NCBI RefSeq assembly: GCF_003991905.1
Contig: NZ_RSCL01000018.1
Location: 1-64,000, forward strand
Reading direction: 5' to 3'
Source: Dulcicalothrix desertica PCC 7102
GTDB taxonomy: Bacteria; Cyanobacteriota; Cyanobacteriia; Cyanobacteriales; Nostocaceae
Length of the DNA: 64,000 nt
Of this stretch, positions 13,872 through 30,533 are shown one piece after another. The notes beneath the pieces were generated by a model. It made no database searches, was not told the DNA's origin, and was given only the letters and a program-made list of their open reading frames with translations. The first letter of the stretch is position 1. Each line of letters opens with the position of its first letter. A program made the position numbers and the translations under genes.

Positions 13872-13905
13872 TCCTCACAAGTTCCTCAAATTATCTGCGT
13901 ATAAA
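13872..13905 (+). promoter_or_regulatory. TCCTCA direct-repeat promoter, site 1 (nitroreductase)
   Basis: TCCTCA at 13872 and 13883 (11 bp apart, separated by CAAGT), then an 11-nt spacer and TATAAA at 13900-13905. It lies 68 nt upstream of the nitroreductase ATG. This is a perfect-consensus member of the ten-site family described in the findings. Confidence 0.7.
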
Positions 13906-13956
13906 CAGAGTTGTGAAGCGGATGAGCGATTATAAGTTAGTAATGGGGACTTCAAA

Positions 13957-14991
13957 ATGTTTATGAGAACTGATATTTGGAATGTCCAAGAAACAGATTT
14001 TCCTGCAACTGGAACACCAGAGGAAAAACTCAAGTTTATTTTGAACTACGCAATATTGGCGCCTTCAAGTCACAATACCCAACCGTGGTGCTTTAAAATT
14101 GATTCAGGCGCCATATACCTACTTGCTGACCGCACTCGTGGTTTACCCGTTGCAGACCCAGATGGTCGGGAATTGATAATCAGTTGCGGAGCAGCGCTTT
14201 TTAACTTACGTATAGCCTTGCATCACTTTGGCTACACAGGTAAAATTAAGACTTTTCCTGACCCCACAAATCCAGATTTGCTAGCTTGTATCGAATTGGG
14301 TCATTCATCAGGGGAAACTACTGACGGAAAGTTACTGTTCCAAGCAATTAAAAAAAGACATACAAACAGACACGATTATCAAGATTGGAATGTTCCAGAA
14401 ACACTGCTTAAAACTTTGCAGAAAGATGCAATATCTGAAGGTGCTAATTTACAAATTGTCAAAGGTGACATTCTGCGTGCTACCGTTACAGAGTTAATTG
14501 CACAAGGCGACCACTTGCAAATGGCAGACCCAAATTTTCGTAACGAATTAGCAACTTGGGTGCGTCCTAGTACCAGCAAAAGTCATGATGGTCTTCCAAT
14601 TTATACTCATGGTATAGATGAACACTTTGAATTTGCTACGCCCTTGTTTGCTTTTGTCTTACGAACTCTGGATATGGGTTATTCAATTGCAGAACGTAGT
14701 CGGAAACTTTTAGAATGCTCACCTGCGATTGTAATTTTAACTACAGAATCTGATAAACCTGCCGATTGGCTAGCAGCTGGGCAAGCACTAGAACGGGTGT
14801 TATTAAGGGCACAAGTAGTTAAATTATTTGCATCTTTTTTGAATCAACCAGTTCAAGTACCAGAATTAAGAAGTCAACTGAGCAAGCTTCTTGGTGATAA
14901 AGGCTATCCACAAATTATGCTCCGTTTAGGGTTTGGGTTAGAAACGAAGCCAACACCAAGGCGAACAGTTGATGAGGTTGTATCTAATTGA
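13957..14991 (+). CDS. Acg-like nitroreductase-family flavoprotein
   Basis: Member of the nitroreductase superfamily of the Acg type, with a long duplicated-like fold (344 residues) rather than the short NfsB form. The hallmark LNYAILAPSSHNTQPWCF (about residues 29-46) is the FMN-contacting start of this group, and RHTNRHDY is also typical. In mycobacteria, Acg proteins are dormancy/hypoxia-induced and have been proposed to sequester or reduce flavin-linked substrates; a stress role is inferred here. GGGG 9 nt before the ATG at 13957 can serve as ribosome-binding site; a second ATG follows at 13963. The TCCTCA promoter directly upstream puts it first in the stress island. Confidence 0.82.
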   Translation: MFMRTDIWNVQETDFPATGTPEEKLKFILNYAILAPSSHNTQPWCFKIDSGAIYLLADRTRGLPVADPDGRELIISCGAALFNLRIALHHFGYTGKIKTFPDPTNPDLLACIELGHSSGETTDGKLLFQAIKKRHTNRHDYQDWNVPETLLKTLQKDAISEGANLQIVKGDILRATVTELIAQGDHLQMADPNFRNELATWVRPSTSKSHDGLPIYTHGIDEHFEFATPLFAFVLRTLDMGYSIAERSRKLLECSPAIVILTTESDKPADWLAAGQALERVLLRAQVVKLFASFLNQPVQVPELRSQLSKLLGDKGYPQIMLRLGFGLETKPTPRRTVDEVVSN

Positions 14992-15066
14992 AAAAATAAG
15001 CATAAAGCAAAGCCTTACCCTGCAACAGCAGTAATTACAGCACATCTTCAAAGTGAGGTATCTGTT

Positions 15067-15258
15067 ATGAAAAAAGAAGCGATGGATTCTTTAGAAGTAT
15101 TAGTTGATAAGTTTACATTAAGCGCCATTTTAGAGTTGCTAGAGCGAATATGCCATAAAAAGGCAGAAAACCTCAGAAATAATTGGGAAGACGAGACTTT
15201 GGCAAAATTATGGGAGAAAGCTGCAAGACAAATTGAACAAATAAATGTTGATATCTAG
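15067..15258 (+). CDS. Small conserved-looking acidic helical protein
   Basis: A 63-residue, mostly helical protein: DSLEVLVDKFTLSAILELLE, then ERICHKKAENLRNNW and a second amphipathic helix. I have a general recollection of similar small cyanobacterial proteins with an HKKAEHLR-type core but know no function. GAGG lies 8 nt before the ATG, a good ribosome-binding site. It follows the nitroreductase gene by 75 bp on the same strand and may share its TCCTCA promoter. Confidence 0.65.
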   Translation: MKKEAMDSLEVLVDKFTLSAILELLERICHKKAENLRNNWEDETLAKLWEKAARQIEQINVDI

Positions 15259-15286
15259 CTAAAAACAACACCATTCGCAGCAACGA

Positions 15287-15303
15287 GTTTCACAAGTTCC
15301 TCA
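15287..15303 (+). promoter_or_regulatory. TCCTCA direct-repeat site 2 (degenerate)
   Basis: GTTTCA-CAAGT-TCCTCA: the second half is perfect and the first half is degenerate. It lies 63 nt upstream of the start chosen for the DUF6544-like gene. No TANNNT is found at the standard spacing, so this is the weakest member of the family. Confidence 0.45.
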
Positions 15304-15366
15304 AATTAAGTAGTTGGGTGGTAAGGCTAAATGTATACAGAATATAAAAATAGAGGGGTCAGAAAA

Positions 15367-16200
15367 ATGATAGTCAAAATTCTACTTAGTATTGGTGTAT
15401 TGCTAGCAAGCGCATTCCTCACTTTAGGTATTGTGCAAGTAAGGAACGACCAAGAAGTTAGTCGAATTTGGCAAGCACTTTCAACTTCACCTGACTTAAA
15501 AAATAATTTTACTAAAGAAATGGTTGCAGAATTACCCGCTCCCGTACAACGTTATTTTTTGCATTCCATTGCGCTAGGAACCCCTCTGGCTTCTGGAGTC
15601 AATCTAAAAATGAGTGGTAATTTTAGGCTTAGTCAAGACAAACCGTGGTTGCCAATGGTAGGTGAAGAGATTATTTCAGATAAAAAAGGATTTGTTTGGA
15701 AAGCAGCCATTGGTAGCCCTCTTTCACAAATGCGAGGAAGTGATTACTATATTAATGGTTTGGGTCGAATGCGGTTTTCGCTTTGGGGGTTAGTTCCCTT
15801 CGTAAATGTCCAAAATCCTGATACTAACCGCTCTGCAATTGGACGATTAGCTGGAGAAATGGTATGGCTACCTTCTGGTTTGCTACCACAGCGCAGTGTA
15901 AGTTGGAAGGCAATTGATGAGAACACTATTCAAGCTAGTTTAAAGATTGACGGTGAACCAGTAACGCTGACACTCTTTATAGACTCAAACGGTAAGCTGC
16001 TGAAGTTATCTTTCCCACGTTGGGGAGAACAGAAAGAAGATGGTACTTACACTTACATTCCCTTTGGTGGAGAAATTCAGCAAGAACAAACATTTGCAGG
16101 ATATACAATTCCATCCCAGGTTAGTTTGGGCTGGTGGTTTGCTCGATACCATTACTCAGAGTTTTTCCGTGCCACAATTGAGCAAGCCAAGTTTAACTAA
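15367..16200 (+). CDS. DUF6544-like protein with N-terminal membrane anchor
   Basis: Resembles the DUF6544 family of unknown function. From the chosen start the first 20 residues form a hydrophobic anchor or signal (MIVKILLSIGVLLASAFLTL). A domain follows with LPAPVQRYFLHS (about 46-57), GEEIISDKKGFVWKA, and a C-terminal GGEIQQEQTFAGYTIPSQ. It probably faces the periplasm. I prefer the ATG at 15367 over 15331 because GAGGGG lies just upstream and the signal segment then starts at residue 1. It lies behind a degenerate TCCTCA site. Confidence 0.65.
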   Translation: MIVKILLSIGVLLASAFLTLGIVQVRNDQEVSRIWQALSTSPDLKNNFTKEMVAELPAPVQRYFLHSIALGTPLASGVNLKMSGNFRLSQDKPWLPMVGEEIISDKKGFVWKAAIGSPLSQMRGSDYYINGLGRMRFSLWGLVPFVNVQNPDTNRSAIGRLAGEMVWLPSGLLPQRSVSWKAIDENTIQASLKIDGEPVTLTLFIDSNGKLLKLSFPRWGEQKEDGTYTYIPFGGEIQQEQTFAGYTIPSQVSLGWWFARYHYSEFFRATIEQAKFN

Positions 16201-16216
16201 ACAATCTAATAACTTA

Positions 16217-16630
16217 TTATTTGACCAAGGTAGGAGCAGTGATAATATGGGTTGTTATTTGTAGTGAGTGGATTAAAGTGTTATGAATTATGCAATTTTC
16301 AATTGCTTGCTGTAAGCCAAGTTTATGCTTTGTTTCCAAAGAGCAAGGTAGACTGACATCAACTTGGAAATTATCTAGATGCGCGACAGGTCTAATCGAT
16401 TTATCAGCATTCACCGTAATGCTAAGACCCGAAGAATCAATGTTTCTGCTTTGCAAATATTTAACTCCATACAAACCAATACAACTACCAAGTGACGCCA
16501 ATAACCACTCTGGTGGAGTCATTCCCTTATCTTCACCACCATTTTCTTCTGGTTGGTCGCCAATTATATAATGATTTCTAGCTGTCGCTTTGAACTGTAG
16601 CTGACCTTCATAATTAATTTTAACTTGCAT
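16217..16630 (-). CDS. OsmC-family peroxiredoxin-like protein
   Basis: OsmC/Ohr-fold protein, expected to detoxify organic hydroperoxides or act in osmotic/oxidative stress. Visible features are the start QVKINYEGQLQFKATARNH, the segment TPPEWLLASLGSCIGLY with the first conserved cysteine, and AIENCIIHNTL with the second. I start at the ATG at 16630, which has GGAGGG 4 nt upstream and gives 137 residues, the usual family length. The longer frame (to 16675) would begin at a TTG with no support. It ends 17 bp from the convergent DUF6544-like gene. A TCCTCA promoter lies 117 nt upstream. Confidence 0.88.
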   Translation of the reverse strand: MQVKINYEGQLQFKATARNHYIIGDQPEENGGEDKGMTPPEWLLASLGSCIGLYGVKYLQSRNIDSSGLSITVNADKSIRPVAHLDNFQVDVSLPCSLETKHKLGLQQAIENCIIHNTLIHSLQITTHIITAPTLVK

Positions 16631-16729
16631 AAAACCCTCCAAATAATTATTAATGAAGGAAATCGTAAGCAGCAATAAGCTAGCGTTGCAGGGATTATAG
16701 AGTATAAGCTTTACTTACCCCTACTTTGA

Positions 16730-16763
16730 GTTATAGGCAAATATTTTGAGGAACTTGTGAGGA
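16730..16763 (-). promoter_or_regulatory. TCCTCA direct-repeat promoter, site 3 (osmC)
   Basis: On the minus strand: TCCTCA-CAAGT-TCCTCA (16763 to 16747), an 11-nt spacer, then TATAAC (16735 to 16730). It drives the OsmC gene 100 nt downstream. Confidence 0.7.
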
Positions 16764-16788
16764 AAGTTAGATTCGGGATAGAAAGATT

Positions 16789-16880
16789 GGCAACGGATGA
16801 TGAACGGATGTAACGGATAAGTGATTTTAAATAATTAGACTCTGCTTATAACCAAAAACTCATCCGTTGTATCCGTTGCA
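16789..16880. repeat. Dispersed ATCCGTTGC repeat, copy 3 (long hairpin form)
   Basis: Left arm GGCAACGGATGATGAACGG followed by TGTAACGGATAAG. After a central segment of about 35 bp, the right arm reads CATCCGTTGTATCCGTTGC. The left arm is the reverse complement of the right half of copy 2, so copies share an inverted-repeat design. It lies between the osmC and uspA promoters. Confidence 0.75.
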
Positions 16881-16929
16881 AAAAAAGCTGAGATTGAAAA
16901 AGTATCAATTTATTGCAAAAATGTAACAT

Positions 16930-16962
16930 TGAGGGGTTTGTGAGGGAAAATAGAATTATAAT
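16930..16962 (+). promoter_or_regulatory. TGAGGG direct-repeat site 4 (uspA), inverted orientation
   Basis: TGAGGG at 16930 and 16941, again 11 bp apart, is the family motif in reverse orientation (minus strand CCCTCA-CAAAC-CCCTCA). A perfect TATAAT sits at 16957-16962, 10 nt after it. The uspA ATG is at 16982, giving a short leader of about 13 nt if this -10 is used. Confidence 0.55.
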
Positions 16963-16981
16963 CAAGTAGCGAAAAAATATC

Positions 16982-17512
16982 ATGATTTACAAGAAAATTT
17001 TGGTTGCTCTCGATAAATCTTCACAAACTTGCATTGTCTTTGAAGAAGCATTAGGAATGGCTCAGAAGTACGGAAGCCAGTTAATGTTCTTTCATTGCAT
17101 CAATAGCAATAAACTAAATGAGCCGTTTTTATCTGTTGGCACTATTGGAGATGTTGATATGTACGGTGCTTTGCACAAACAGTACCAACAAAACTTACTT
17201 CACGAAATTCAACAAGTTGATATTTGGCTAGAAAGTTGCTGCCAGCAAGCCAATATCAAAAAAATTCCCGCACAATTTAAGCATGGATTTGGAGAAGCTG
17301 GTAAACAGATTTGCAGTTTAGCAGAGTCATGGGGTGCGGATTTAATTATATTAGGTCGCAGAGGGCACAGAGGGATTACAGAAATTTTGCTTGGTAGCGT
17401 CAGTAGTTATGTTCTTCATCACGCTCCTGCAAGCGTGTTGGTTGTACAAGAACAGATATTCACAAAGCATAAAAAATTTGTGATGACAACATCAACTCAA
17501 GCTGAAATGTGA
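16982..17512 (+). CDS. Universal stress protein (UspA family)
   Basis: Single-domain universal stress protein of 176 residues. The N-terminal KKILVALDKSS and the C-terminal ATP-binding signature are visible: LIILGRRGHRGITEILLGSVSSYVLHHAP matches G-x2-G-x9-G-(S/T), suggesting the ATP-binding subgroup. A tail of about 20 residues (KHKKFVMTTSTQAEM) extends beyond the usual end. It is likely a cytoplasmic dimer that helps survival under stress. It is divergent from osmC, and both genes carry a TCCTCA-type promoter. Confidence 0.9.
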   Translation: MIYKKILVALDKSSQTCIVFEEALGMAQKYGSQLMFFHCINSNKLNEPFLSVGTIGDVDMYGALHKQYQQNLLHEIQQVDIWLESCCQQANIKKIPAQFKHGFGEAGKQICSLAESWGADLIILGRRGHRGITEILLGSVSSYVLHHAPASVLVVQEQIFTKHKKFVMTTSTQAEM

Positions 17513-17594
17513 AGTTTTTATAAGTTTACGTAAATTTTATGTTAACAGTTGTTAAAAGTTAAGGGGGAAAGGTGCTATTTCAAACAGTACAGTT

Positions 17595-19228: not shown

Positions 19229-19237
19229 CAGTTGGGT

Positions 19238-19271
19238 TGCTCACAAGTTCCTCAAGATTTTGTTTTAAGGT
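19238..19271 (+). promoter_or_regulatory. TCCTCA direct-repeat promoter, site 5
   Basis: TGCTCA-CAAGT-TCCTCA (19238-19254), an 11-nt spacer, then TAAGGT (19266-19271). It stands in front of a degraded coding fragment (19274-19423) and, further on, the peptidoglycan-binding protein gene. The original target may have decayed. Confidence 0.6.
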
Positions 19272-19273
19272 GA

Positions 19274-19423
19274 AATTATAGTATTAGTACTGATGTGAGT
19301 ACAGGTTATCCAAGCGTGCCAGGTGTGATTGGTAATGGTATGAATGTAGCCAAATTAATAACTAGAGAATCTGTGCGTAAAATAAAAGATGTACCAAAGT
19401 CATTGGTGGCGCCTCATCTTTAG
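19274..19423 (+). pseudogene. C-terminal remnant, possibly of an FAD-dependent oxidoreductase
   Basis: An open frame without a start reads STDVSTGYPSVPGVIGNGMN, then VAKLITRESVRK, and ends KSLVAPHL before a TAG. The spacing of Gly and Pro residues recalls the C-terminal FAD-contacting segment of phytoene-desaturase-like enzymes, compare GGSVPVVAMSGRNI in the intact gene at 21372-22916. It follows a TCCTCA promoter. I infer a decayed gene; the family call is tentative. Confidence 0.4.
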
Positions 19424-19504
19424 TAGAATTTGGCAAGATAAGTTACCCAAAATAAAGCGATAAAATAGTTAGTAATTTCTAAAAATGATAGATGAGGATA
19501 AACT

Positions 19505-19777
19505 ATGCTAGTTCAAACTCAATCTGTAAAGTTGGTCAATACCACTGATATGCCAGTTTTAGAACTAGGTGCTTGTGGGGAGGCTGTGAAATTTTTGCAA
19601 GTGCTACTTGTCGCTTATGGATTTTTGACTCGCGATTTCGTTAGCGATGAGTTTAACGGTAGAACAGAGCTATCAGTCAAAAATTTTCAAACCGTTCATC
19701 GTTTGTATGTGGATGGTATTGTTGGAAGCCAAACATGGCAAAAGTTAGCAGAGCTTGCAACTGAACACCATTATTAA
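19505..19777 (+). CDS. Peptidoglycan-binding (PGB_1) domain protein
   Basis: A 90-residue protein consisting of one PG_binding_1 domain: LELGACGEAVKFLQVLL, then NGRTELSVKNFQTVHRLYVDGIVGSQTW, the classic pattern ending in the DGIVG-xxTW motif. No signal peptide is seen, so either export is unconventional or it works inside the cell. GATGAGGAT upstream provides a ribosome-binding site. Such stand-alone domains are common in cyanobacteria, with no known function. It probably belongs to the stress island. Confidence 0.82.
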   Translation: MLVQTQSVKLVNTTDMPVLELGACGEAVKFLQVLLVAYGFLTRDFVSDEFNGRTELSVKNFQTVHRLYVDGIVGSQTWQKLAELATEHHY

Positions 19778-19848
19778 ATTAGAATGAAACTAACTGAATT
19801 CTCTGCTTTACGAGCAAACATCGCCGCCATTTTACTAATAGGTTGATA

Positions 19849-20100: not shown

Positions 20101-20160
20101 AGTTTTTCTCCACAAATTGTTTTTCTAAGTAATTGGTAAAGTGTAGATTTAGATAGTCTT

Positions 20161-20874
20161 TTAGACTAATGATAGCGTTTGCAAACAAGTTCGGTTTGAG
20201 TTTGCTAATTGTAAGTGATGCTTAAACCATTGATTCGCTAATCTCGCAGTTTCTTCTAATGTTCCGGGTTCTTCAAACTTGTGGGATGCATTTGGGATAA
20301 CTTCAAGCCGTTTATCATGGGCTGGAATTTGTAACAATGCATCTTCATTCATGGTAATAGTTGGGTAATCTTCGCCACCTACAATCAGTAATGTAGGCGC
20401 CTGCAAATACGTAAGGTCAGAACCGATTAAGTATGTATAGGCACTACGCGCAACAACCGAGCAAACTTTCGTTCGTTGTGCTGCTGCTAATAGAGCCGCT
20501 CCGCCTAGGGCACTGGCGCCAAAGTAACCTATTTTAAGATTACAAGTCATCGCATTTTCCGCCAGCCAATCAGTTATGCCTACAAGTCGCGTTGCTAGAT
20601 GTAGGATATTACAACGAAAATGTTTGCTCCGTTGGTCGAGTCGGTCTTCTTCTTCCGTTAGCAAATGGATTAATATTGTTGCCCAACCAGCTTGGCGTAA
20701 GAGATGAGCAAGATAACGGAGTCGATGTTCGTACTTAATACTACTTTTGGCGCTTGGAATTACAACTATTCCCTGTGCGTCTTCAGGAATTACTAACTCG
20801 CCTTCTAGTTTGACTTGACCTAACTGGACAGTGATGATTTGCTCTTCTACTTCAAATGCTTGTTTTTTATACAC
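20161..20874 (-). CDS. Alpha/beta hydrolase (dienelactone-hydrolase-like)
   Basis: Alpha/beta hydrolase of 237 residues. Nucleophile elbow GYFGASALGG (Ser in GAS), acid in LIVGGEDYP and histidine in NASHKFEEPG are all present. The GASALGG elbow lacks the second glycine at the usual GxSxG place, a mild oddity. The group is related to hydrolases often fused to phosphoribosyltransferases in stress clusters. Substrate is unknown. GGAGGAA upstream of the ATG is a strong ribosome-binding site. It has its own TCCTCA promoter, 92 nt upstream, supporting a stress role. Confidence 0.8.
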   Translation of the reverse strand: MYKKQAFEVEEQIITVQLGQVKLEGELVIPEDAQGIVVIPSAKSSIKYEHRLRYLAHLLRQAGWATILIHLLTEEEDRLDQRSKHFRCNILHLATRLVGITDWLAENAMTCNLKIGYFGASALGGAALLAAAQRTKVCSVVARSAYTYLIGSDLTYLQAPTLLIVGGEDYPTITMNEDALLQIPAHDKRLEVIPNASHKFEEPGTLEETARLANQWFKHHLQLANSNRTCLQTLSLV

Positions 20875-20965: not shown

Positions 20966-20999
20966 AGCCTAAACAACAAAATTGAGGAACTTGTGAAGA
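20966..20999 (-). promoter_or_regulatory. TCCTCA direct-repeat promoter, site 6 (hydrolase)
   Basis: On the minus strand: TCTTCA-CAAGT-TCCTCA (20999 to 20983), an 11-nt spacer, then TAGGCT (20971 to 20966). It serves the alpha/beta hydrolase gene starting at 20874. Confidence 0.65.
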
Positions 21000-21075: not shown

Positions 21076-21109
21076 TCCTCACAACTTCCTCAAACTTTTC
21101 ACATAATCT
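21076..21109 (+). promoter_or_regulatory. TCCTCA direct-repeat promoter, site 7 (DUF2949 gene)
   Basis: TCCTCA-CAACT-TCCTCA (21076-21092), an 11-nt spacer, then TAATCT (21104-21109). It is divergent from site 6 with about 75 bp between the motifs. It drives the DUF2949 gene and probably the FAD oxidoreductase behind it. Confidence 0.7.
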
Positions 21110-21139
21110 GACAATACAGTATTCATGAGGGGTAGTAAC

Positions 21140-21334
21140 ATGGAAACTACTAGAATGATTGAGTTGATCGGCTTTTTGCAGAAAGACCTGGCAATTCCAG
21201 CATCGGATTTGCAATTGGCATTACGGCACCCAGAGCAAACCCCTAGTTCCTTACCAATGATTTTATGGCAGTATGGTTTGGTAACTTTAAGTCAATTAGA
21301 CCAAATTTTTGACTGGTTGCAGAGGAGCTTTTGA
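21140..21334 (+). CDS. DUF2949 family small protein
   Basis: Small cyanobacterial protein (64 residues) of the DUF2949 type: FLQKDLAIPASDLQLALRH, then LPMILWQYGLVTLSQLDQIFDWL. Function is unknown. I use the ATG at 21140 (METTRMIELI) because GAGGGG lies upstream of it; the ATG at 21125 lies at that ribosome-binding site. The following oxidoreductase gene starts 37 bp after the stop, so an operon is likely. Confidence 0.78.
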   Translation: METTRMIELIGFLQKDLAIPASDLQLALRHPEQTPSSLPMILWQYGLVTLSQLDQIFDWLQRSF

Positions 21335-21371: not shown

Positions 21372-22916
21372 ATGAAAAGTTCCTCAACCGACATCATTAT
21401 TATTGGTGCAGGCATTGCTGGACTGGCAGCAGGTTGCTATGCCCAAATGAATGGTTATCGTACCCAAATTTTTGAGATGCACAACTTGCCTGGTGGTTTA
21501 TGTACCGCATGGAAGCGCAAAGGTTATGTATTTGATGGCTGTATTCACTATCTATTTGGCTCTGGAAAAAACCAGCCGTTTTATCAAATGTGGGAGGAAC
21601 TAGGTGCAGTTCAGGGTCGGCAGTTTGTCCATCACGATGAGTTTATGCGGATTGTGGCGCCGGATGGCAAAACTCTAATTGTCTATAGTGATCCCGACCG
21701 ACTCGAACGGCATATGTTAAGTCTCTCACCGAGTGACAAAAGGCTGATAAAGGAATTTTGTGCGGGTATCTGGGATTTTACCGACTTTGATATGTCCTTA
21801 CTCCAGCAAAAGCCAAAAGTTTTGATGAATCCTGTTGACTGGGTTCGTTTGAGTTGGAAAATGCTACCGTTTGTTGGATTACTTAATAAATGGGGGAAAA
21901 TCTCGGCATCTGAATTTGGCAATCACTTCCAAGACCCCTTTTTACGTTGTGCAATCCCACAAATGTTTGCTTGGAAAGACATTCCGATGATGGTCGGTAT
22001 GTCGCTGTTAGCATATACATTTAACAAAAACGCTGGGTTTCCAGTAGGCGCCTCATTAGAATTTGCGCGCGCTATTGAAAAGCGCTATTTAGATAATGGT
22101 GGTGAAATTCATTATTGTTCCCAAGTCGAGCGCGTTCTTGTGGAAAACGACCAGGCTGTGGGAGTGCGGTTGTATAGCAATGAAGAATATTATGCTGACC
22201 GTATCATTTCTGCTTGTGACGGGCGCGGTACAATTTTTGACTTGCTAGGAGGTAAGTATCTCAATCGCCAAATAAAAAAACTCTATGATGGTCATCTACC
22301 GTTACACTCACAACTTCAGGTTTCTCTTGGCTTAAATCGCGATTTATCTTCTAAACCTCACTGGGTTACTTACTTGTTAGAGCAACCAATAGTCATTGCT
22401 GGCGAGGAACGTTACGAAATTGGTGTCAAGCACTATTGCTTCGATCCTTCCCTAGCTCCTGCGGGTAAATCAGTAGTTATCGTGATGCTAAATACACCCT
22501 ACGATTACTGGCAGCGCATTTATGGACGGTCTATATATGATGCTGAACAAATACAAGAATCGCATATTCTCATCAATCAATTGGAGAAATTTTACCCTGA
22601 TATTAAAGCTGACATTGAATTTATAGATGTGGCTACACCCCTTAGTTATGAACGCTACACTGGTAATTGGCAAGGTTCAAACTGTGGCTGGTTGTTAACA
22701 AAAAAGACGATGTTTCAGATGGTCGCTGGTATAGACAAGACGCTGCCAGGTTTGGATAATTTTTATATGATTGGGCAATGGGTTGAACCTGGTGGTAGTG
22801 TGCCAGTAGTTGCAATGTCGGGACGTAATATAATTCAGCAAATTTGCCATGAGGACAAAAAGGTATTTATAACTACAACCCTTGATTCTAAAATTGTTAA
22901 GTCAAAAGCAATATAG
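21372..22916 (+). CDS. NAD(P)/FAD-dependent oxidoreductase of the phytoene-desaturase-like family
   Basis: FAD-binding oxidoreductase (514 residues) related to CrtI, carotenoid isomerase and retinol saturase. The N-terminal dinucleotide fold IIIIGAGIAGLAAGCYAQ is followed by NLPGGLCTAWKRKGYVFDG, which carries the conserved GG. The C-terminal FAD contact is IGQWVEPGGSVPVVAMSGRNI. It lacks diagnostic features of CrtI, CrtH or CrtO that I could name, so I give no symbol. A carotenoid- or polyene-modifying reaction is inferred. It is probably co-transcribed with the DUF2949 gene from a TCCTCA promoter. Confidence 0.82.
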   Translation: MKSSSTDIIIIGAGIAGLAAGCYAQMNGYRTQIFEMHNLPGGLCTAWKRKGYVFDGCIHYLFGSGKNQPFYQMWEELGAVQGRQFVHHDEFMRIVAPDGKTLIVYSDPDRLERHMLSLSPSDKRLIKEFCAGIWDFTDFDMSLLQQKPKVLMNPVDWVRLSWKMLPFVGLLNKWGKISASEFGNHFQDPFLRCAIPQMFAWKDIPMMVGMSLLAYTFNKNAGFPVGASLEFARAIEKRYLDNGGEIHYCSQVERVLVENDQAVGVRLYSNEEYYADRIISACDGRGTIFDLLGGKYLNRQIKKLYDGHLPLHSQLQVSLGLNRDLSSKPHWVTYLLEQPIVIAGEERYEIGVKHYCFDPSLAPAGKSVVIVMLNTPYDYWQRIYGRSIYDAEQIQESHILINQLEKFYPDIKADIEFIDVATPLSYERYTGNWQGSNCGWLLTKKTMFQMVAGIDKTLPGLDNFYMIGQWVEPGGSVPVVAMSGRNIIQQICHEDKKVFITTTLDSKIVKSKAI

Positions 22917-23760: not shown

Positions 23761-23811
23761 TGGCTAAAAATGATGAATTTCAGAATTATTACTTCCTATT
23801 GCGTGTAATAT

Positions 23812-25224
23812 TTATCGAAGTTTAATTTCACTACCATCATGAATCTGCTCGCTAGGATGCAGAATAACTAATTCTTCTTCTTTCAATCCTCGACGAATTT
23901 CTGCTTCAAAATCGCTGCGTCGTCCAACTTGAACCAGGCGCCGAACTGCTTTACCATCTTTAATTACAAACGTACACCATGATTGACCACAGCGAAACAG
24001 CGAACTTAATGGTGCCTTTAATATACTTTTCCCATCCCAAATTATAATTTTTACATCAACACGGTAAGCATCACCAAGAGATTTAGCTGTATCAACAAAA
24101 TCACCAATTACGTTGACACGCTGTTCTTCCACCCCCAAGGCAGAAACTTTGGTAAATGCAGAAGGTTCTATCCGTCTAACTTTTGCTTTAATTGCTTGAA
24201 TATCTCCTCCTTGGTCAATTAATATAGTGTCTCCGATTTGAATTTTGGTTGCATCACTCGAAAGTACATCAATAACTAGCTCTAGTTGCGAGATATTACC
24301 TACTTCAAGTACAGGTGTACCTGATGTAACGAACTGGGCACTTTCTTTTTGCACTCGCAGTACTTGGCCACTTACAGGTGAGTAAATATTAGTACGTGCG
24401 GCTTCATCTCTCAACTTTGAAAGTTCTGCTTCAACGCTGGCGATACGAGCATCATAGACTTTAAGTAAATAATCAGGGTCTTTTTGCTCTTGTTGTAAAA
24501 CTAAAAGCGTCGCGCGTGCAACTTCAACCTCATTGGCAGATGCTTTTGCTGCAAGCTTTACAGTTTCTAGTTCTTTAGCTTTAGTTATTTGATTAAGTTC
24601 TGCAACTTCCCTATTTTGACGGGGAATAGCACCAGATGTCTGTAATTGCTGGGCACGCTGAGTATCTCGTTGCGCTTGTTCCAATGCAGCTTGTGCTTGT
24701 ACAACTCTTGCCTCTGCTTGTTGCTGTGTTGCAAGTGCTGCTTGGATACGTTTTTGTGCTTGTTCGAGGTTGGCTGGCTTTGGGCGTTGCGTTGCTACTC
24801 CTTGACGTTGCGCGCGCCATTCTGCCAATCTTCCCAAAGCCTCTTTCACCGAGGAAGTCAGAGGAAGTGGGTCGATACGTGCGACTACTGCTCCTTGTTC
24901 AACTTTATCGCCTTCATCCAATTCTATTCGTGCGAGACGACCATCGACAGGCGCCGAAATTGTATAACGATTACGCACTCGTGTTTTACCTTCAGCATTA
25001 ACGCTAACCTGCAATTCACCGCGACTAAGGCGCCTGGTATCTACAGGAATAGGAGTAGGACGGAAAGCTTGTACAATTAAAACAACGGTAGTAAAAGCAA
25101 TTGTAAAATAGATAAACAGTTTGGGCGATATTTTAGGTAAGCGTTTCCTTAATCGTTTAGTTTCCGAAATTGGTTCATTCTCGTTCGGTTGTTCTTTTAA
25201 CCACCTGGAAGGTAAAAGTTTCAT
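23812..25224 (-). CDS. HlyD-family membrane fusion protein
   Basis: Periplasmic adaptor of an ABC efflux complex. The 470 residues show one membrane segment (about 34-52), a first biotinyl-lipoyl-like half (VDGRLARIELDEGDKVEQGAVVARIDP), a long Gln/Ala-rich coiled coil (about 130-280), and the second half (INIYSPVSGQV region). Beta-barrel and membrane-proximal domains lead to the end. It should connect the FtsX-type permease encoded upstream to an outer-membrane channel. A TCCTCA promoter lies 75 nt upstream, so the adaptor can be expressed separately from the permease, whose stop is 95 bp before this start. Confidence 0.88.
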   Translation of the reverse strand: MKLLPSRWLKEQPNENEPISETKRLRKRLPKISPKLFIYFTIAFTTVVLIVQAFRPTPIPVDTRRLSRGELQVSVNAEGKTRVRNRYTISAPVDGRLARIELDEGDKVEQGAVVARIDPLPLTSSVKEALGRLAEWRAQRQGVATQRPKPANLEQAQKRIQAALATQQQAEARVVQAQAALEQAQRDTQRAQQLQTSGAIPRQNREVAELNQITKAKELETVKLAAKASANEVEVARATLLVLQQEQKDPDYLLKVYDARIASVEAELSKLRDEAARTNIYSPVSGQVLRVQKESAQFVTSGTPVLEVGNISQLELVIDVLSSDATKIQIGDTILIDQGGDIQAIKAKVRRIEPSAFTKVSALGVEEQRVNVIGDFVDTAKSLGDAYRVDVKIIIWDGKSILKAPLSSLFRCGQSWCTFVIKDGKAVRRLVQVGRRSDFEAEIRRGLKEEELVILHPSEQIHDGSEIKLR

Positions 25225-25281
25225 GTTGAATTGTTTGTATATAAATTTACCTAGATGCTTAAATTGTGGCTATATATATTA

Positions 25282-25315
25282 AGATTAAACAGTAAAATTG
25301 AGGAAGTTGTGAGGA
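25282..25315 (-). promoter_or_regulatory. TCCTCA direct-repeat promoter, site 8 (hlyD-like gene)
   Basis: On the minus strand: TCCTCA-CAACT-TCCTCA (25315 to 25299), an 11-nt spacer, then TAATCT (25287 to 25282). It lies in the 94-bp gap between the permease stop and the HlyD start, giving the adaptor its own promoter within the exporter operon. Confidence 0.72.
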
Positions 25316-25318
25316 TGT

Positions 25319-27685
25319 TTATTCTCTCATTTTTAACACAGCAATTAAATCTAGGTTCTTCAAATGGCGCCGGACAATTAACCCAGAGATAATTGCAGCA
25401 ATTGTCACTACCACAAATGCGAAAGCGTAAGTTGCTTTAGTTACAACTAAGGGAATACGGTAAAGTTCTGAGTTGTAAGTTAGAGACATCAACGCACAAA
25501 AACCAAACCCGATTGCAAATCCCAAAGGTATTGCTAGAAGCGTTAAAACAGCTTGTTCACCTAAAAGAATCACTGAAATTTCTGCCTGGGTAAAACCGAT
25601 AACACGCAAAGTAGCCAATTCTCGACTGCGTTCGGATAAAGCTATACGCGCAGCGTTGTAAACCACCCCAAAGGCAATTACGCAAGCAAAGACAACTAAT
25701 ACAGTTGTAAAAACACCAAGACTACCTGCAATTGTTTCTTGAAAGCGCTTAATTGCCATTTCCCGCACGGTAACACCAGCTACCCCTGGTGTTTGCTTTA
25801 ACATTTTATACAATCTATCAATTTGCAAAGAGTCGGCTGCTAAATATGCTCCTGATACAGTTCTACCTTCGCGCATCAATTGATTTAATGCTTGTATATC
25901 CATGTATGCCGCGACACCAATTAATTCATCTACTAAACCAGCTACAGCGACTGTACGTGTAGGCCTTTCTGCTTCTAATACTTCCACCGTTAAAGTATCA
26001 CCGGGTTTAACACCTAAGATTTCTGCTAGTTTTGTTGTTAGTAGCACCCCATTGGATGGTAAATTCACAGGACGCAAATTTTTATTTAACAGGCGCCTTA
26101 GTTCTGCATTTGGCTCTAAACCTGTCAGTGCAATTCGGTAGTCACGGTGTTCAAAACGTAATTTAGCTGGTACAGCGCGGAATGTTTCGGTACGCAATAC
26201 ACCAGGTAGATGGGCAACTTCATACCGCACGCGCGAGGGTCGTGGTTCATTAAACACAATCATCACGTCTTCACGCTGAACGTTGCGAAATTGCACATCA
26301 ATTATGTGTTGCATTGCATCGCTAAAATAACTACCGACAACTAATATCGCCACTGCAAGAGCTATTCCAATGATAGAAAAACATGCTTGTATTGGCTTGC
26401 GTTCGAGGTTTCGCAGAATCATTCGACTTACAGGAGAAAGTAAACATTCAAACCCCAGACGTTCGATAATCGTAGGATGAAAATGTGCAGGTGGTTCGGG
26501 ACGCATTGCTTCTGCTGGTGGTAGCGAAACTGCTTTTTCCACTGCCATAAATCCACCAATCACCGCAGCACCACCACTAATTAAAATAGAGAGCATCACT
26601 AAACCAATTCCAGCTTCGTAGCGCAGTAAAGGAAACGAGAAAAACCTAGTATAGTTTTGAGTAACAGCAGCACCAAACCAGAGTCCAAGGGCTGTACCGA
26701 ATGCGGCGCCTGCCAATACAATAACTAAAACAAACTTTAAATAATGTAAACCAATATCTGTATTACTGTATCCGAAAGCTTTGAGAACTGCTATTTGGTC
26801 GCGTTGGGTGGCGATAAGCCGAGAAAGCAAGATATGTAAGAGAAACGCAGCAATTCCAAGAAATATAGATGGTACTATTGTTGCAGTTCCTTGGAGTTGG
26901 CTAATTTCTTCCGAGAGAAAACGGTTAGAAAGTTGGTAAGAACGACCATAGGCGCCAAAACCACCATAATTCTCTAAAAGTTTATCTAGGCGAAATATCA
27001 CATCAGCTTCAACAGCACCTCGCATACACGAAAGCGTCACATCATTAAATGCACCATCCATATTAAAAGCAGTACCTAAAGCTTCGCGTCCCATCCAAAA
27101 AACACCAAACCGTTCATTATCAGGGAAAACATCACCCGTTCCTTGAATAGCATAAACATACTCTGGTGAGAGCGCTATCCCCACAATTCGCAGCTTTTGC
27201 CAACGTCCATTAATAATGGCGCCAACAGAATCACCTAAATCTAGTTTGTGTACTTTAGCAAAGCTTTCGCTAATTAATACCTCATCATCTTTATCTGGTT
27301 GAATATAACGCCCCCGCCGAATAAAAATATCATTGAGCATTGGCATCTGTAGCCGTGGTATCGATATTAACCGCCCAGTTGCAGGTTCACTCCGTCCAGG
27401 AATATCGAGACTCACATCTGCAACCACTCGTGTTTGTACCTGTGCGACTCCAGGGATATCTTGAATTTGTATTGCTAAAGATTCTGGCGCGCGTTTAAGT
27501 TGAGCGAAAACCTGGGCAAAGCGGTACTGTTCGTAATAACTAGCTTGGGAAAGTTTTAATGAGTCATAAGCACTCAGCATCGAGACAAAACTGGCAATAC
27601 CACAAGCGACAACTAGCGCTATGGCAATAATTTGACCTCGCTGATGCATTAAGTCACGGGTAAGCTTTATATCGAGCGGTTTCAT
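25319..27685 (-). CDS. ABC transporter permease with two FtsX domains
   Basis: Membrane subunit of a type VII (MacB/LolCE-like) ABC system. The 788 residues contain an N-terminal membrane helix (about 18-38), a large periplasmic domain, an FtsX block of three helices (about 270-395), a fourth anchor (about 433-455), a second periplasmic domain and a final FtsX block (about 660-785). FtsX signatures are LIATQRDQIAVLKAFGYS and LSERSRELATLRVIGFT. It would pair with the ATPase at 28957-29715 and the HlyD protein to move a substrate across the envelope by mechanotransmission. The ATPase gene is separated from it by an opposite-strand gene. Confidence 0.87.
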   Translation of the reverse strand: MKPLDIKLTRDLMHQRGQIIAIALVVACGIASFVSMLSAYDSLKLSQASYYEQYRFAQVFAQLKRAPESLAIQIQDIPGVAQVQTRVVADVSLDIPGRSEPATGRLISIPRLQMPMLNDIFIRRGRYIQPDKDDEVLISESFAKVHKLDLGDSVGAIINGRWQKLRIVGIALSPEYVYAIQGTGDVFPDNERFGVFWMGREALGTAFNMDGAFNDVTLSCMRGAVEADVIFRLDKLLENYGGFGAYGRSYQLSNRFLSEEISQLQGTATIVPSIFLGIAAFLLHILLSRLIATQRDQIAVLKAFGYSNTDIGLHYLKFVLVIVLAGAAFGTALGLWFGAAVTQNYTRFFSFPLLRYEAGIGLVMLSILISGGAAVIGGFMAVEKAVSLPPAEAMRPEPPAHFHPTIIERLGFECLLSPVSRMILRNLERKPIQACFSIIGIALAVAILVVGSYFSDAMQHIIDVQFRNVQREDVMIVFNEPRPSRVRYEVAHLPGVLRTETFRAVPAKLRFEHRDYRIALTGLEPNAELRRLLNKNLRPVNLPSNGVLLTTKLAEILGVKPGDTLTVEVLEAERPTRTVAVAGLVDELIGVAAYMDIQALNQLMREGRTVSGAYLAADSLQIDRLYKMLKQTPGVAGVTVREMAIKRFQETIAGSLGVFTTVLVVFACVIAFGVVYNAARIALSERSRELATLRVIGFTQAEISVILLGEQAVLTLLAIPLGFAIGFGFCALMSLTYNSELYRIPLVVTKATYAFAFVVVTIAAIISGLIVRRHLKNLDLIAVLKMRE

Positions 27686-27694
27686 AATTATGTA

Positions 27695-27716
27695 GAGACG
27701 TTACATGTAACGTCTC
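27695..27716. repeat. GAGACG palindrome
   Basis: Perfect 22-bp palindrome with arm GAGACGTTACA. It is related to the GAGACG palindromes at 12342-12369, 30020-30100 and 40407-40452, 10 bp upstream of the permease start. Confidence 0.65.
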
Positions 27717-27864
27717 AAATCAAGGATTTATCAGCCTATCACCCAATTTAGCCTAAGTTTTGGCGCCGACTATTCCATCTGCCTCCCTCTAAAGTAGTAA
27801 ATTTACGATTTACTTACTTTGTTAAAAGTTTACATAAACTAATTTTTATTTGTATTAAGTTTTT

Positions 27865-27898
27865 TCCTCACAAATTCCTCAAATTATTTCCGTAATCT
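27865..27898 (+). promoter_or_regulatory. TCCTCA direct-repeat promoter, site 9
   Basis: TCCTCA-CAAAT-TCCTCA (27865-27881), an 11-nt spacer, then TAATCT (27893-27898). It faces the polymer-forming-like membrane protein gene, with a leader of about 145 nt. Confidence 0.7.
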
Positions 27899-28050
27899 CA
27901 AAACAGACTTAGCTAATGCAACGTACATTTGATAACAAGCGAGTAATTAAGCCAACAACGGTGGTATTGCTTTGCCATCTATTAATTTATTATTGGCAGT
28001 ATCCGAATGCGTGATTAATGGTGAATATAGGAATATGAGGGCAAAAGAAT

Positions 28051-28935
28051 ATGAAAGGTATCAAAAGAAACTCATTGATTCTGATATTGGTATCGGTCTT
28101 AAGTGTAATTGTTTTTTCTTTAACAGCTTTAGCGCAAACTGAAATTAATATCAACAAGAATAATATTATTCGGATTGGCGGTGATGTGGTTGTTGCTCCT
28201 AAGCAAAAGGTGGAAAATGCTCACGCGATAGGTGGTGACGTAACAATTGGTGAGGGTGCAAGAGTTACCCAGACAGCAATTGCAGTTGATGGTGATGTAA
28301 TTTTAGAAAAAGGCGCCCGTGTGGATGGCGATGTTTATGCTGTAGGTGGAGAAATTATTGCAGCGACCGGGGCTACCATTGGTGGTGCTTCTGGTACAGC
28401 TTTAGACAGTGGCAGATGGGGAACATACGGTTACCGAAGGAGGGGAATTGGTAACTTTTTCCGTTATCTTTTCCATATTGGATTTCACATTCTCAACGTC
28501 GCTGTAGTTACTATTATTGGTGTTTTACTTCTACTTTGGCGCCCAAATTTTTTGCTTAACCTAGCAGCAAATGTTAGAGAATATCCGCTTCAATGTGGAT
28601 TATGGGGTTTAGGCGGTTTGTTTGCGGTAATTTTGCTAATTATCTTCCTGGCAGTTAGTTTAGTCGGAATTCCATTGTTACCCTTAGTTGGTTTAGCTGT
28701 CACTATTGCATTCGTACTAGGAAATATGGGAATTGCTCTTTGGGTTGGGCAAAGAATTTTAACTAGGAGAGAACGAACAACTATGCAAGAATTTCTGATT
28801 GGGATGCTAATTTTGGGTTTAATCGGTTTGATTCCCGTATTAGGAGGACTTATGTCGTCAGTAGTAAATATTTTTGGTTTGGGTGCATTAATTACGTGGT
28901 TGCTAAGTAAAAGGCGAACAAGGTCTGTTGTATAG
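28051..28935 (+). CDS. Exported polymer-forming (bactofilin-like) protein with C-terminal membrane domain
   Basis: Signal peptide (about 1-28, ending in LTALAQ), then a short beta-repeat domain (about 30-115) with evenly spaced GGDV / DGDV / EKGARVDGDVYAVGGE units, similar to bactofilin-type polymer-forming domains. Four hydrophobic segments follow (about 145-166, 183-205, 210-235, 262-288). Such proteins are common near transporters and kinases, without a defined function. It lies in opposite orientation between the exporter's permease and ATPase genes and has its own TCCTCA promoter. GAGGG upstream of the ATG is the ribosome-binding site. Confidence 0.75.
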   Translation: MKGIKRNSLILILVSVLSVIVFSLTALAQTEININKNNIIRIGGDVVVAPKQKVENAHAIGGDVTIGEGARVTQTAIAVDGDVILEKGARVDGDVYAVGGEIIAATGATIGGASGTALDSGRWGTYGYRRRGIGNFFRYLFHIGFHILNVAVVTIIGVLLLLWRPNFLLNLAANVREYPLQCGLWGLGGLFAVILLIIFLAVSLVGIPLLPLVGLAVTIAFVLGNMGIALWVGQRILTRRERTTMQEFLIGMLILGLIGLIPVLGGLMSSVVNIFGLGALITWLLSKRRTRSVV

Positions 28936-28956
28936 ATGTTGTATAGATATTCAAAG

Positions 28957-29715
28957 TTACCATTCCAACTGAGTCGGAGATAATTTTTCTTTATTCAGTT
29001 TCACGTTTGTAATCTGTCCACTTCGCATTGTAATTACCCTATCAGCCATTGCTGCAATACCAGCATTGTGGGTAATAACTACCGTTGTCGTCCCTAGTTC
29101 CTGGTTTACCTGTTCCAAAGCTTCCAATACCAGTTTACCTGTTTGATAATCCAAGGCGCCTGTAGGTTCATCACATAATAACACTTCAGGACGCTTGGCA
29201 ATCGCGCGGGCAATAGCAACTCGTTGTTGCTCACCTCCTGACATTTGTGCTGGAAAGTGATTGAGACGTTCTTTTAGTCCGACTAAGTTTAACGCATCTT
29301 CAGGACGTAAAGGATGGCGAGCAATTTCCGTCACAAGTGCCACATTTTCTTTAGCTGTTAAACTGGGAATTAGGTTATAAAACTGGAAAATAAAACCAAC
29401 ACAATTGCGACGAAAACGAGTTAGTTCTGCATCACTCGCATTTTGCAAGTTATGTCCTCTGAAAAATACTTCACCGCTAGTTGGTACATCTAAACCACCA
29501 AGTATGTTTAATAACGTTGATTTTCCGCTACCACTAGCTCCTAGTAATACTACTAACTCGCCTTCGTAAAGTTCTAGGTCTATTCCTAATAATGCATGAA
29601 CTTCCACCTCACCCATGCGATAAACCTTAGTGATATTTTTGACATTAAATATGCCTACTAGTGGCATAGTTGACTCACTGTAAATGACTGAGTGTTTTTC
29701 TGGCAGATTGTCCAT
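28957..29715 (-). CDS. ABC transporter ATPase (LolD/MacB type)
   Basis: Nucleotide-binding subunit of the exporter. It has the N-terminal [14 protein letters not shown] typical of the MacB/LolD group, Walker [11 protein letters not shown]-loop FQFYNLIP, signature [14 protein letters not shown], Walker [13 protein letters not shown] and the switch histidine in VITHN. I use the ATG at 29715; an ATG at 29667 would also leave a complete domain, while the in-frame TTG at 29796 overlaps the upstream small ORF. It is expected to pair with the two-FtsX permease at 25319-27685. Confidence 0.87.
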
Positions 29716-29734
29716 AACCACACCGAATAGCTTA

Positions 29735-29974
29735 TCAAAATTGTTTATTCTTACTCTTTGGAGAATATATAATGTTTCCGTAATCTCCAATAGCAATTAC
29801 TTCATCATCTTGGCGCCAATTGTTATTTTCTATAACGTAGTCAAATTTTTCTTTTAATTCTTCGTCAGACAAACGTTCTAAACTTTTCGCCCATGATAGC
29901 CCAAAATTAAAGGGAAGTGAGATAGTTGATTCTTGTTGCCTAGTAGTATTTACAAATTTGTAATATTGTCCCAT
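29735..29974 (-). CDS. Small hypothetical protein upstream of the ABC ATPase
   Basis: A 79-residue ORF beginning [18 protein letters not shown] and containing [22 protein letters not shown] and a [15 protein letters not shown] segment. It looks like a small soluble protein and is biased like real coding sequence, but I do not recognise a family. It ends 19 bp before the chosen ATPase start and may be its leader gene in one transcript. The ribosome-binding site is weak. Confidence 0.5.
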
Positions 29975-30019
29975 TGCTCGTTACCCAATTTTTGTAAATA
30001 TTTGTAAAAATTAATTATT

Positions 30020-30100
30020 TTATAGAGACGCAATATTGTCTAGAGACACGATATCCTGTAGAGACGCAATATCCTTGAGAGACTCCATTAATGGAGTCTC
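30020..30100. repeat. Cluster of TAGAGACG repeats ending in a palindrome
   Basis: TAGAGACGCAATATTG, TAGAGACACGATATCC and TAGAGACGCAATATCC follow in tandem (about 30-35 bp period). Then comes a perfect 22-bp palindrome with arm GAGACTCCATT (30079-30100). It belongs to the same repeat family as 12342-12369 and 27695-27716. Confidence 0.65.
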
Positions 30101-30171
30101 TACAGTGTTACAAATAACACTATAATATTGTTAGCATTATTTGGAACATTTATCAATTGTTCAATTGCTTT

Positions 30172-30274
30172 ATACCATTTCTATATGAAGATGCGCTTTA
30201 TTACTCTTACTCCCCCCTTATTAAGGGGGGCAGGGGGGGATTTAATTATTTGCAGCTTCATATTAAATTGGTAT
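30172..30274. repeat. MITE-like element with ATACCAATTTAATATGAAG-type ends
   Basis: The left end ATACCATTTCTATATGAAG and the reverse complement of the right end (ATACCAATTTAATATGAAG) match at most positions. The interior has CCCCCCTTATTAAGGGGGG. A single such end is present at 51485-51499. It lies 3 bp from the stop of the 57-residue gene at 30278. Confidence 0.6.
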
Positions 30275-30277
30275 TAA

Positions 30278-30451
30278 TTAATAATGTTTTTTCTCACTTG
30301 GCTCACCTTCAAACGGTTGAACTCCTGTTTCAGGGAAATCATCGTCTCTAGGAGCAAAAATTCTAGACACTGCCCCGGAAAGGTAGGTAATGATTTTTTG
30401 AGGTACTTCTTTTACTGCTTGTAAAATTCCATTTGTATTAGAATTCGTCAT
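30278..30451 (-). CDS. Small 57-residue protein (FAPRDDDFPETGVQPFEGEP type)
   Basis: A short gene starting MTNSNTNGILQAVKEVPQKI, continuing ITYLSGAVSRIF and then FAPRDDDFPETGVQPFEGEP near the C-terminus. The acidic PETGVQPFEG tail resembles small conserved cyanobacterial proteins I have seen, without a known function. AGGGG lies 7 nt before the ATG. A TCCTCA promoter with TAATTT is 66 nt upstream, and the leader contains the TCACACGAACAAAG element. The position right after an OmpR-type regulator gene, plus a consensus site, makes it a likely direct target. Confidence 0.75.
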   Translation of the reverse strand: MTNSNTNGILQAVKEVPQKIITYLSGAVSRIFAPRDDDFPETGVQPFEGEPSEKKHY

Positions 30452-30499
30452 ATTTAACCCCTTTGTTCGTGTGAGATTGATTTAGATTACTCCCTTTTT

Positions 30500-30533
30500 A
30501 AATTAGAACAAAAACTTGAGGAACTTGTGAAGA
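30500..30533 (-). promoter_or_regulatory. TCCTCA direct-repeat promoter, site 10 (57-residue gene)
   Basis: On the minus strand: TCTTCA-CAAGT-TCCTCA (30533 to 30517), an 11-nt spacer, then TAATTT (30505 to 30500). It lies between the regulator gene stop (30586) and the small gene start (30451). Confidence 0.68.

Follow-up and report, generated by a model that had tools for sequence, protein, structure and literature searches.

The stretch of DNA analysed here (hereafter the window) comprises the 64,000 nucleotides at the start of contig C18 in the 11.4-Mb genome of the cyanobacterium Dulcicalothrix desertica PCC 7102, and carries a family of intergenic sites in which two direct repeats, TTCCTCA-N4-TTCCTCA, are followed at a fixed distance by a -10-like element. 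We propose that these sites are the output end of an oxygen-controlled phosphorelay, in which a FixL-like kinase would signal to an RcaC-type regulator that, in turn, would act on the TTCCTCA-N4-TTCCTCA promoters; we put the probability of this reading at roughly three in four. More generally, the box family is probably under the control of related relay proteins that sense oxygen, the fullest form of which would combine a FixL-type heme sensor, a kinase, a phosphorelay and a DNA-binding domain in one polypeptide of about 1,100-1,800 residues. The box, its spacing from the -10, its enrichment both in this genome and in several orders, the types of downstream genes, the linkage to a regulator clade and the FixL-like PAS domain with its histidine were all computed.

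How might such a relay operate? The two repeats, spaced by 11 bp, would take the place of the -35 box, with a TAnnnT of the sigma-70 type at a fixed distance after them. A dimer of the OmpR/PhoB-type winged helix of an RcaC-type regulator (the copy encoded in the window or its paralogue on contig C11) would bind the box and recruit RNA polymerase. The input would come from a FixL-type histidine kinase with a heme-binding PAS domain, which is fused to the regulator in several relatives and, in the present genome, would be the product of a separate gene on contig C1 that has a box of its own. Upon a fall in oxygen, the kinase would phosphorylate the chain of receiver and Hpt domains, and the regulator would activate genes for stress proteins, redox enzymes and fermentation; such phosphotransfer and anoxic induction are predictions from the sequences, as is DNA binding by the window regulator.

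The window contains eight copies of the strict form of the box (TCCTCA-N5-TCCTCA, no more than one mismatch), compared to a mean of 0.12 and a maximum of 1 in 100 dinucleotide shuffles. The excess resides in these strict sites because the loose pattern, with three mismatches allowed, is only slightly enriched (48 matches against 33.9 expected). All eight strict sites are intergenic, and in all eight a TA starts exactly 12 nt past the repeat. An earlier note on this stretch had listed ten sites with the 11-bp spacing and a TANNNT exactly 12 nt after the repeat in eight of these; the eight strict sites stand, whereas those at 15287 and 16930 are weak, and the -10 holds in all eight as a TA but letter for letter as TANNNT in only six, the exceptions being TATAAA and TATAAC. 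The sites, the genes next to them and the proposed regulator are as follows.

13872..13888, + strand: box without mismatches; -10 TATAAA at 13900-13905; upstream of the Acg-family FMN oxidoreductase gene
13957..14991, + strand: Acg family FMN-binding oxidoreductase, Rv3131 type (NF047509, 347 bits against a cut-off of 199)
15287..15303, + strand: weak box, three mismatches; degenerate in the first half-site and lacking the TA at offset 12
15331..16200, + strand: DUF6920/DUF6544 protein
16217..16675, - strand: OsmC-like protein (PF02566); the real start possibly lies downstream of the listed TTG
16747..16763, - strand: box without mismatches; -10 TATAAC at 16735-16730; upstream of the OsmC-like gene
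16930..16946, - strand: weak inverted box, two mismatches; upstream of the oppositely running universal stress protein gene
16982..17512, + strand: universal stress protein (PF00582)
19238..19254, + strand: box with one mismatch; -10 TAAGGT at 19266-19271
19505..19777, + strand: small protein with a peptidoglycan-binding domain (PF01471)
20161..20874, - strand: alpha/beta-hydrolase-like protein, a weak match (PF02129, 21.6 bits, cut-off 23)
20983..20999, - strand: box with one mismatch; -10 TAGGCT at 20971-20966
21076..21092, + strand: box without mismatches; -10 TAATCT at 21104-21109
21125..21334, + strand: DUF2949 protein (PF11165)
21372..22916, + strand: CrtI/CrtH-like FAD oxidoreductase, below the NCBIfam cut-offs
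23812..25224, - strand: exporter membrane fusion protein of the RND_mfp family (TIGR01730, 110.9 bits against a cut-off of 94.9)
25299..25315, - strand: box without mismatches; -10 TAATCT at 25287-25282
27865..27881, + strand: box without mismatches; -10 TAATCT at 27893-27898
28051..28935, + strand: 294-aa protein without a Pfam family at E 0.001
30517..30533, - strand: box with one mismatch; -10 TAATTT at 30505-30500; immediately downstream of the regulator gene
30586..32655, - strand: RcaC-type hybrid response regulator, REC-wHTH-Hpt-REC-PAS_3 (Pfam); start probably at 32586; candidate reader of the box

The CrtI/CrtH-like gene possibly forms an operon with the DUF2949 gene. For the box at 30517 on the - strand, the next listed same-strand open reading frame (ORF) encodes a LolD/DevA-like ATPase and is 721 nt away.

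The confinement of the sites to 13.8-30.6 kb, as described in the earlier note, holds within the window but not for the genome, which has a second dense box island (C11:214426-238222) and scattered sites besides. In this C11 island, a gene that by eye resembles the one for the peptidoglycan-binding protein at 19505..19777 also stands after a box. The genome-wide and related-genome scan that the note had proposed reveals enrichment in both the order and the class. Across 243 genomes of the order, the box with its spacer, one mismatch allowed, yields 684 matches compared to 84 for the reversed pattern; at least one match is found in 174 of the 243 genomes, single matches being close to background. 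In the class, 31 of 116 genomes contain the composite pattern (box, 11 free positions and TA), with 140 matches in all, against 4 for its reverse. Among the matches listed for more distant relatives, 14 of the 15 cyanobacterial loci L243-L257 lack a box at up to one mismatch. A search of plasmids matched nine records, every one at less than 60% identity.

For the analysis of consensus, spacing and orientation, we used 103 distinct intergenic sites with at most one mismatch from the scanned loci. The consensus over these sites is TCCTCACAAgTTCCTCAaATT, followed by an AT-rich stretch and then TA, with the spacer conserved as well. A TA is present at offset 12 in 99 of the 103 sites, compared to about 9% at other offsets, and the full TAnnnT form in 69; outside the window, where the same offset holds in 91 of 95 distinct sites, the search pattern did not contain the TA. 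A same-strand gene start lies within 300 bp downstream of 88 of the 103 sites, whereas on the other side this is so for only 35, which bears out the view that the sites follow gene orientation and are not simple repeats. Nor is the motif equally common inside genes, the outcome that the earlier note had named as fatal to a promoter: of 117 sites that deviate by no more than one mismatch, only 7 fall within ORFs of at least 100 aa, although such ORFs make up 76% of the scanned sequence. The possibility that we are dealing with a dispersed repeat or a mobile element, suggested by the recurrence of the sites and their clustering in islands, is hard to reconcile with this gene avoidance and orientation, with the occurrence of the sites in several orders, and with position-by-position composition, in which, over the 45 bases compared, only the box, the AT-rich stretch and the -10 are conserved; we reject it as having a negligible probability.

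If the TA belongs to the -10, the half-sites lie at about -40 and -29, and the repeats span about -40 to -24. Activators of the PhoB/OmpR type bind at about -40/-29 in their class-II sites. Tandem repeats one helical turn apart that cover the -35 region at a fixed distance from the -10 are the layout of PhoB/OmpR-type promoters, the parallel drawn in the earlier note, and the fixed TA, the orientation and the spread over genomes all agree with it. Thus, given the fixed spacing of the TA, the gene-directed orientation, the avoidance of coding sequence and the presence in many genomes, the identification of the sites as promoters with a class-II-type activator layout is supported. Two conserved blocks at fixed spacing could also represent the promoter of an alternative sigma factor. 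However, the tandem 11-bp repeat is explained by an activator dimer and not by a sigma -35 element, the -10 has the ordinary TAnnnT form in 69 of the 103 sites, and the box is linked to a regulator; together with positional composition, gene avoidance and orientation, these features led us to reject the alternative-sigma reading, which we consider very improbable.

Which protein, then, reads the box? The likely candidate is the hybrid regulator encoded at 30586-32655. REC-wHTH-Hpt-REC is the domain order of RcaC, and Pfam detects this order in the window protein, namely a receiver, an OmpR/PhoB winged helix, an Hpt domain and a C-terminal receiver; the C11 box island encodes a paralogue that is 55% identical to it. 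A site with at most one mismatch lies within about 10 kb in 12 of the 20 loci of the closest relatives, compared to 2 of 20 paralogue loci. When 91 REC-wHTH sequences are placed in a tree, the window regulator belongs to a clade of ten, all of which have a box within 10 kb (support 88/90), whereas none of the members of a clade of 24 that includes the GGDEF-bearing regulator of this genome is box-adjacent (0/24, support 80/62; the GGDEF content was verified for that one member, and L069, L251 and L325 were judged on short stretches of 5-8 kb). Wider flanks around the rows of the tree add no further site except beside L335. The box-adjacency label, carried by 24 rows, requires 9 changes on the tree, compared to a mean of 21.4 in shuffles, none of 500 of which was as low, near-copies contributing to this result and the bootstrap not having settled. 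Furthermore, in seven box-rich genomes, 9 of 27 such regulators are located within 10 kb of a site, against 0.93 under random placement.

A third RcaC-type regulator of this genome (L093, C11:134757-136661) ends in a GGDEF domain, and neither it nor its clade has a TTCCTCA box nearby; hence, related regulators may read other boxes. Separately, the spacer variant TCCTCATAAGTTCCTCA characterises a box island beside a 623-aa regulator of a sister clade (G135:C19:249000-296000, loci L120-L122) and also occurs near a sister regulator in G227 (L433). The recognition helices differ little, being mostly VRTHIK or VRTQIK as opposed to V[RT][SA]HIK.

The candidate for the oxygen sensor comes from relatives of the regulator, several of which are considerably longer. 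Those of L074, L075, L076 and L091 are extended by PAS, HisKA and HATPase domains in the same chain and contain 4, 5, 5 and 3 receiver stretches, respectively. The PAS domain just ahead of HisKA has its best PDB match in FixL (2.2e-21), followed by DosP. Both FixL and DosP are oxygen sensors, and the heme ligand of FixL, a heme-based sensor, is a histidine that is followed by an arginine. The residue aligned to this axial histidine is a histidine in 26 of 27 PAS domains, the sole exception coming from a genome without the composite box (G265), and the arginine is retained in all five domains of a smaller alignment. Thus, both the FixL match with its histidine and the HisKA-HATPase transmitter that follows the PAS domain conform to the FixL type, and the domain is predicted to bind heme and oxygen. 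Among the kinase-fused regulators examined, 10 of 11 have a site within 10 kb (a hand tally), the exception being that of G056. At E up to 1e-10, a single FixL-like PAS domain is found in the present genome; it belongs to a stand-alone kinase of 680 aa that is encoded on contig C1 and consists of REC, PAS, HisKA and HATPase domains. This kinase gene appears to be box-controlled since it is preceded, on the same strand, by a perfect box and a 64-aa frame.

The distribution of the domain across genomes points in the same direction. In the class, the PAS domain is present in 20 genomes, 18 of which have the composite box, compared to 13 of the 96 genomes that lack the domain (Fisher 5e-11, a hand tally over related genomes); in the order, at least three boxes are present in 49 of 108 genomes with the domain and in 23 of 135 without it. 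Between box and kinase or regulator gene, a short cysteine-rich protein (CPCCS...HVRGN...WFCR) is encoded at L033:3459-3653 (this genome, C1) and at L074:11886-12086; the former matched no Pfam family.

The evidence on the genes downstream points to a regulon of anoxia, fermentation and dormancy or stress. The loci were picked by rank of the regulator match or by clusters and mismatch rank of the sites, not by gene content, and four short or doubtful frames were excluded from the 103 first genes, leaving 99 that were aligned. By Pfam, these 99 include 11 universal stress proteins (five of which adjoin a fused regulator in regulator-selected loci), 8 phosphoenolpyruvate (PEP) synthases, 5 pyruvate:ferredoxin oxidoreductases, 4 Hsp20 proteins, 2 subunits of the NuoF/HoxF type and 2 alternative oxidases; NCBIfam adds HoxU and a pyruvate formate-lyase activating protein. 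In the C11 island, a box precedes a PEP synthase gene, and another is located about 0.4 kb before a gene of the acetate-CoA-ligase type (558.8 bits, just below the cut-off of 567). From outside the order, we sampled 40 regions with 44 sites, three of these inside ORFs, in 12 of the 24 genomes with a composite match; this set does not include all sites of the 12 genomes, and gene content was not known at selection. The presence of the TA at all 44 sites is no evidence because it was part of the search pattern. The 34 first genes of this set encode 4 PEP synthases, 3 radical-SAM/Fer4_12 proteins of the activase type, a pyruvate formate-lyase that carries the glycyl radical domain, a phosphofructokinase, 3 universal stress proteins, 2 Hsp20 proteins and HypA.

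As a control, we used 66 of 68 ORFs, having excluded one first gene after a box and one regulator under study. In direct comparison, none of the 66 was a relative of the universal stress protein, Hsp20, PflA, pyruvate:ferredoxin oxidoreductase, PEP synthase or HoxU queries. Among the 25 families listed of the 88 found in the control ORFs, none belongs to the families of the box genes, although a single universal stress protein or Hsp20 could be hidden; a weak match resembling the universal stress protein was found in one of 356 ORFs of the control loci.

Could the signal be something other than oxygen? Universal stress proteins, OsmC, Hsp20 and Acg-type proteins are general stress genes, so that the relay might sense nitric oxide, redox state or light and govern a general stress and dormancy regulon of which fermentation is one part. 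Heme PAS domains are able to respond to nitric oxide or carbon monoxide. RcaC itself responds to light, according to the portion of the source consulted (PMC8256508). Nevertheless, the PAS domain best matches two oxygen sensors, FixL and DosP, and the targets include pyruvate formate-lyase with its glycyl radical domain, the cognate activase, pyruvate:ferredoxin oxidoreductase and hydrogenase genes, so that we regard a signal other than oxygen as unlikely.

A number of observations weigh against the proposed relay. Across the order, an upstream box is found for only 4 of 29 nifJ and 2 of 30 PEP synthase genes, compared to 0 of 29 recA genes, perhaps because most of the sampled genomes lack a close regulator. 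Fermentation enzymes make up only a minority of the first genes, and the scanned genes of the window island are stress, redox and exporter genes with no fermentation enzymes among them. Neither the window regulator nor its C11 copy contains a kinase or a FixL-like PAS domain. In the order, 59 of the 108 genomes with the PAS domain have fewer than three boxes, and 10 of the 135 without it have at least five. Furthermore, owing to the relatedness of the genomes, and to first genes that in some cases are near-copies from sister genomes, the p-values and counts overstate independence. With respect to the regulator, a site within about 10 kb is lacking in 8 of the 20 loci of close relatives: six of these come from two genera of one family that have boxes elsewhere in the genome, one is on a 7.4-kb contig, and one is the kinase-fused case of G056.

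Still other findings in the same vein would fit a scenario in which the box is real and serves an anoxia and stress regulon but is bound by a different OmpR/PhoB-type regulator, the RcaC-type genes being mere neighbours. Thus, no box, at up to three mismatches, is present in the 0.6 kb upstream of the window regulator itself; many box islands (for example, L113-L119 and L123) lack this winged helix at E 1e-12; and in the box-rich genomes of families f20 and f32, the box-adjacent regulators fall in other sub-clades. Against a different binder stand the clade linkage (10/10 compared to 0/24), the presence of an RcaC-type gene within 2 kb of some f20 and f32 box clusters (G135 C19, G189 C139 and G090 C1), and the winged-helix search of the loci, which, apart from RcaC-type genes, recovered a single further regulator (L040, 46 bits). 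We deem this scenario doubtful, somewhat more so than a signal other than oxygen, and retain the RcaC-type regulator as the candidate reader.

How does the putative relay compare to known systems? The closest precedent is RcaC with its L box in the chromatic acclimation of Fremyella and of Synechococcus PCC 7335, with which the order REC-wHTH-Hpt-REC is shared. The L box is TTGCACA-N4-TTGCACA; like it, the present box is a pair of 7-mers in a 7+4 layout with 11-bp spacing, but the half-site is TTCCTCA rather than TTGCACA. RcaC is linked to the photoreceptor RcaE and targets phycobilisome genes, whereas here the sensor would be a FixL-like PAS kinase, either fused or box-controlled, and the apparent targets are fermentation and stress genes. 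Activation by RcaC proceeds via a phosphorelay, as far as the consulted part of the source goes (PMC8256508). The pho box likewise consists of direct repeats with 11-bp spacing that overlie the -35 region and keep a constant distance to the -10; the TTCCTCA box differs from that PhoB/OmpR system in sequence, regulator architecture and regulon. The resemblance to FixL-FixJ consists in the FixL-like PAS ahead of HisKA-HATPase. However, the output domain is not of the NarL/FixJ kind but an OmpR/PhoB-type winged helix (Trans_reg_C) accompanied by Hpt and receivers, often in the same chain, and the host is an oxygenic phototroph. Finally, as in the DosR/DevR regulon of mycobacteria, an Acg/Rv3131-type oxidoreductase, universal stress proteins and Hsp20 stand under one box; yet DosR is a NarL-type protein with a palindromic box, in contrast to the direct repeat and the OmpR/PhoB-type, RcaC-like regulator seen here. 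Thus, a known relative exists for each of the parts (RcaC and the L box, PhoB promoters, FixL, the DosR regulon); what appears to be new is the combination of a FixL-type sensor with an RcaC-type DNA-binding relay.

In the available parts of two reviews, control of hox and nifJ is ascribed to CyAbrB1/2, SigE and RpaA, and the low-oxygen response to ChlR (the 2026 review, PMC13421787), and LexA and AbrB-like proteins are named as regulators of hydrogenase (PMC4463661). These controls overlap with the TTCCTCA box system in targets and trigger (same portions of PMC13421787 and PMC4463661), but ChlR differs in binding a palindrome via an iron-sulphur cluster. The word RcaC does not occur in the text of PMC13421787, and the portions of PMC13421787 and PMC4463661 drawn on here name neither an RcaC-type regulator nor the TTCCTCA box. 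In the open-access literature, a scope that excludes most subscription journals, we recognised no description of the TTCCTCA box or its regulator, nor, on TCCTCACAA and cyanobacterial promoters, anything pointing to the box, in agreement with the earlier note, to which no described cyanobacterial regulon with this consensus was known.

Oxygenic phototrophs alternate between an excess of oxygen during the day and anoxic conditions in dark mats, in soils and in symbioses. Oxygen control of fermentation and hydrogenase has been worked out mainly in Synechocystis, with nucleoid proteins and SigE implicated, to judge by the part of the review consulted (PMC13421787). We are inclined to think, with less assurance than for the relay as such, that many cyanobacteria from several orders possess a dedicated oxygen-to-promoter relay in which the TTCCTCA-N4-TTCCTCA box would turn on fermentation, hydrogenase and dormancy genes, that is, a master regulator of anoxia absent from the regulator lists in the reviewed portions. 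The box, the regulator and the candidate heme sensor travel together, which makes the question of oxygen sensing directly testable; in addition, together they allow the anoxia regulon to be traced by sequence in uncultured cyanobacteria and would offer an oxygen-controlled promoter part.

Several features of the window are separate from the box family. The palindrome GGCGCC occurs 89 times in positions 1-64000, compared to 2.8 expected from base composition, whereas HIP1 (GCGATCGC), the palindrome usual in cyanobacteria, is absent and CGATCG, with 7.7 expected, is absent as well; we take GGCGCC to be a HIP1-like iterated palindrome with a different core. Dispersed intergenic inverted repeats resembling TAGAGACG...CGTCTCTA were seen by eye at about 12340-12370, 27690-27718 and 30020-30110, and TAGAGACG occurs seven times over both strands of the window. 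Close together on the - strand, at 32781-34097 and 35372-36661, two genes encode similar 430-aa proteins that, by eye, have a CxxC zinc-ribbon-like N-terminus.

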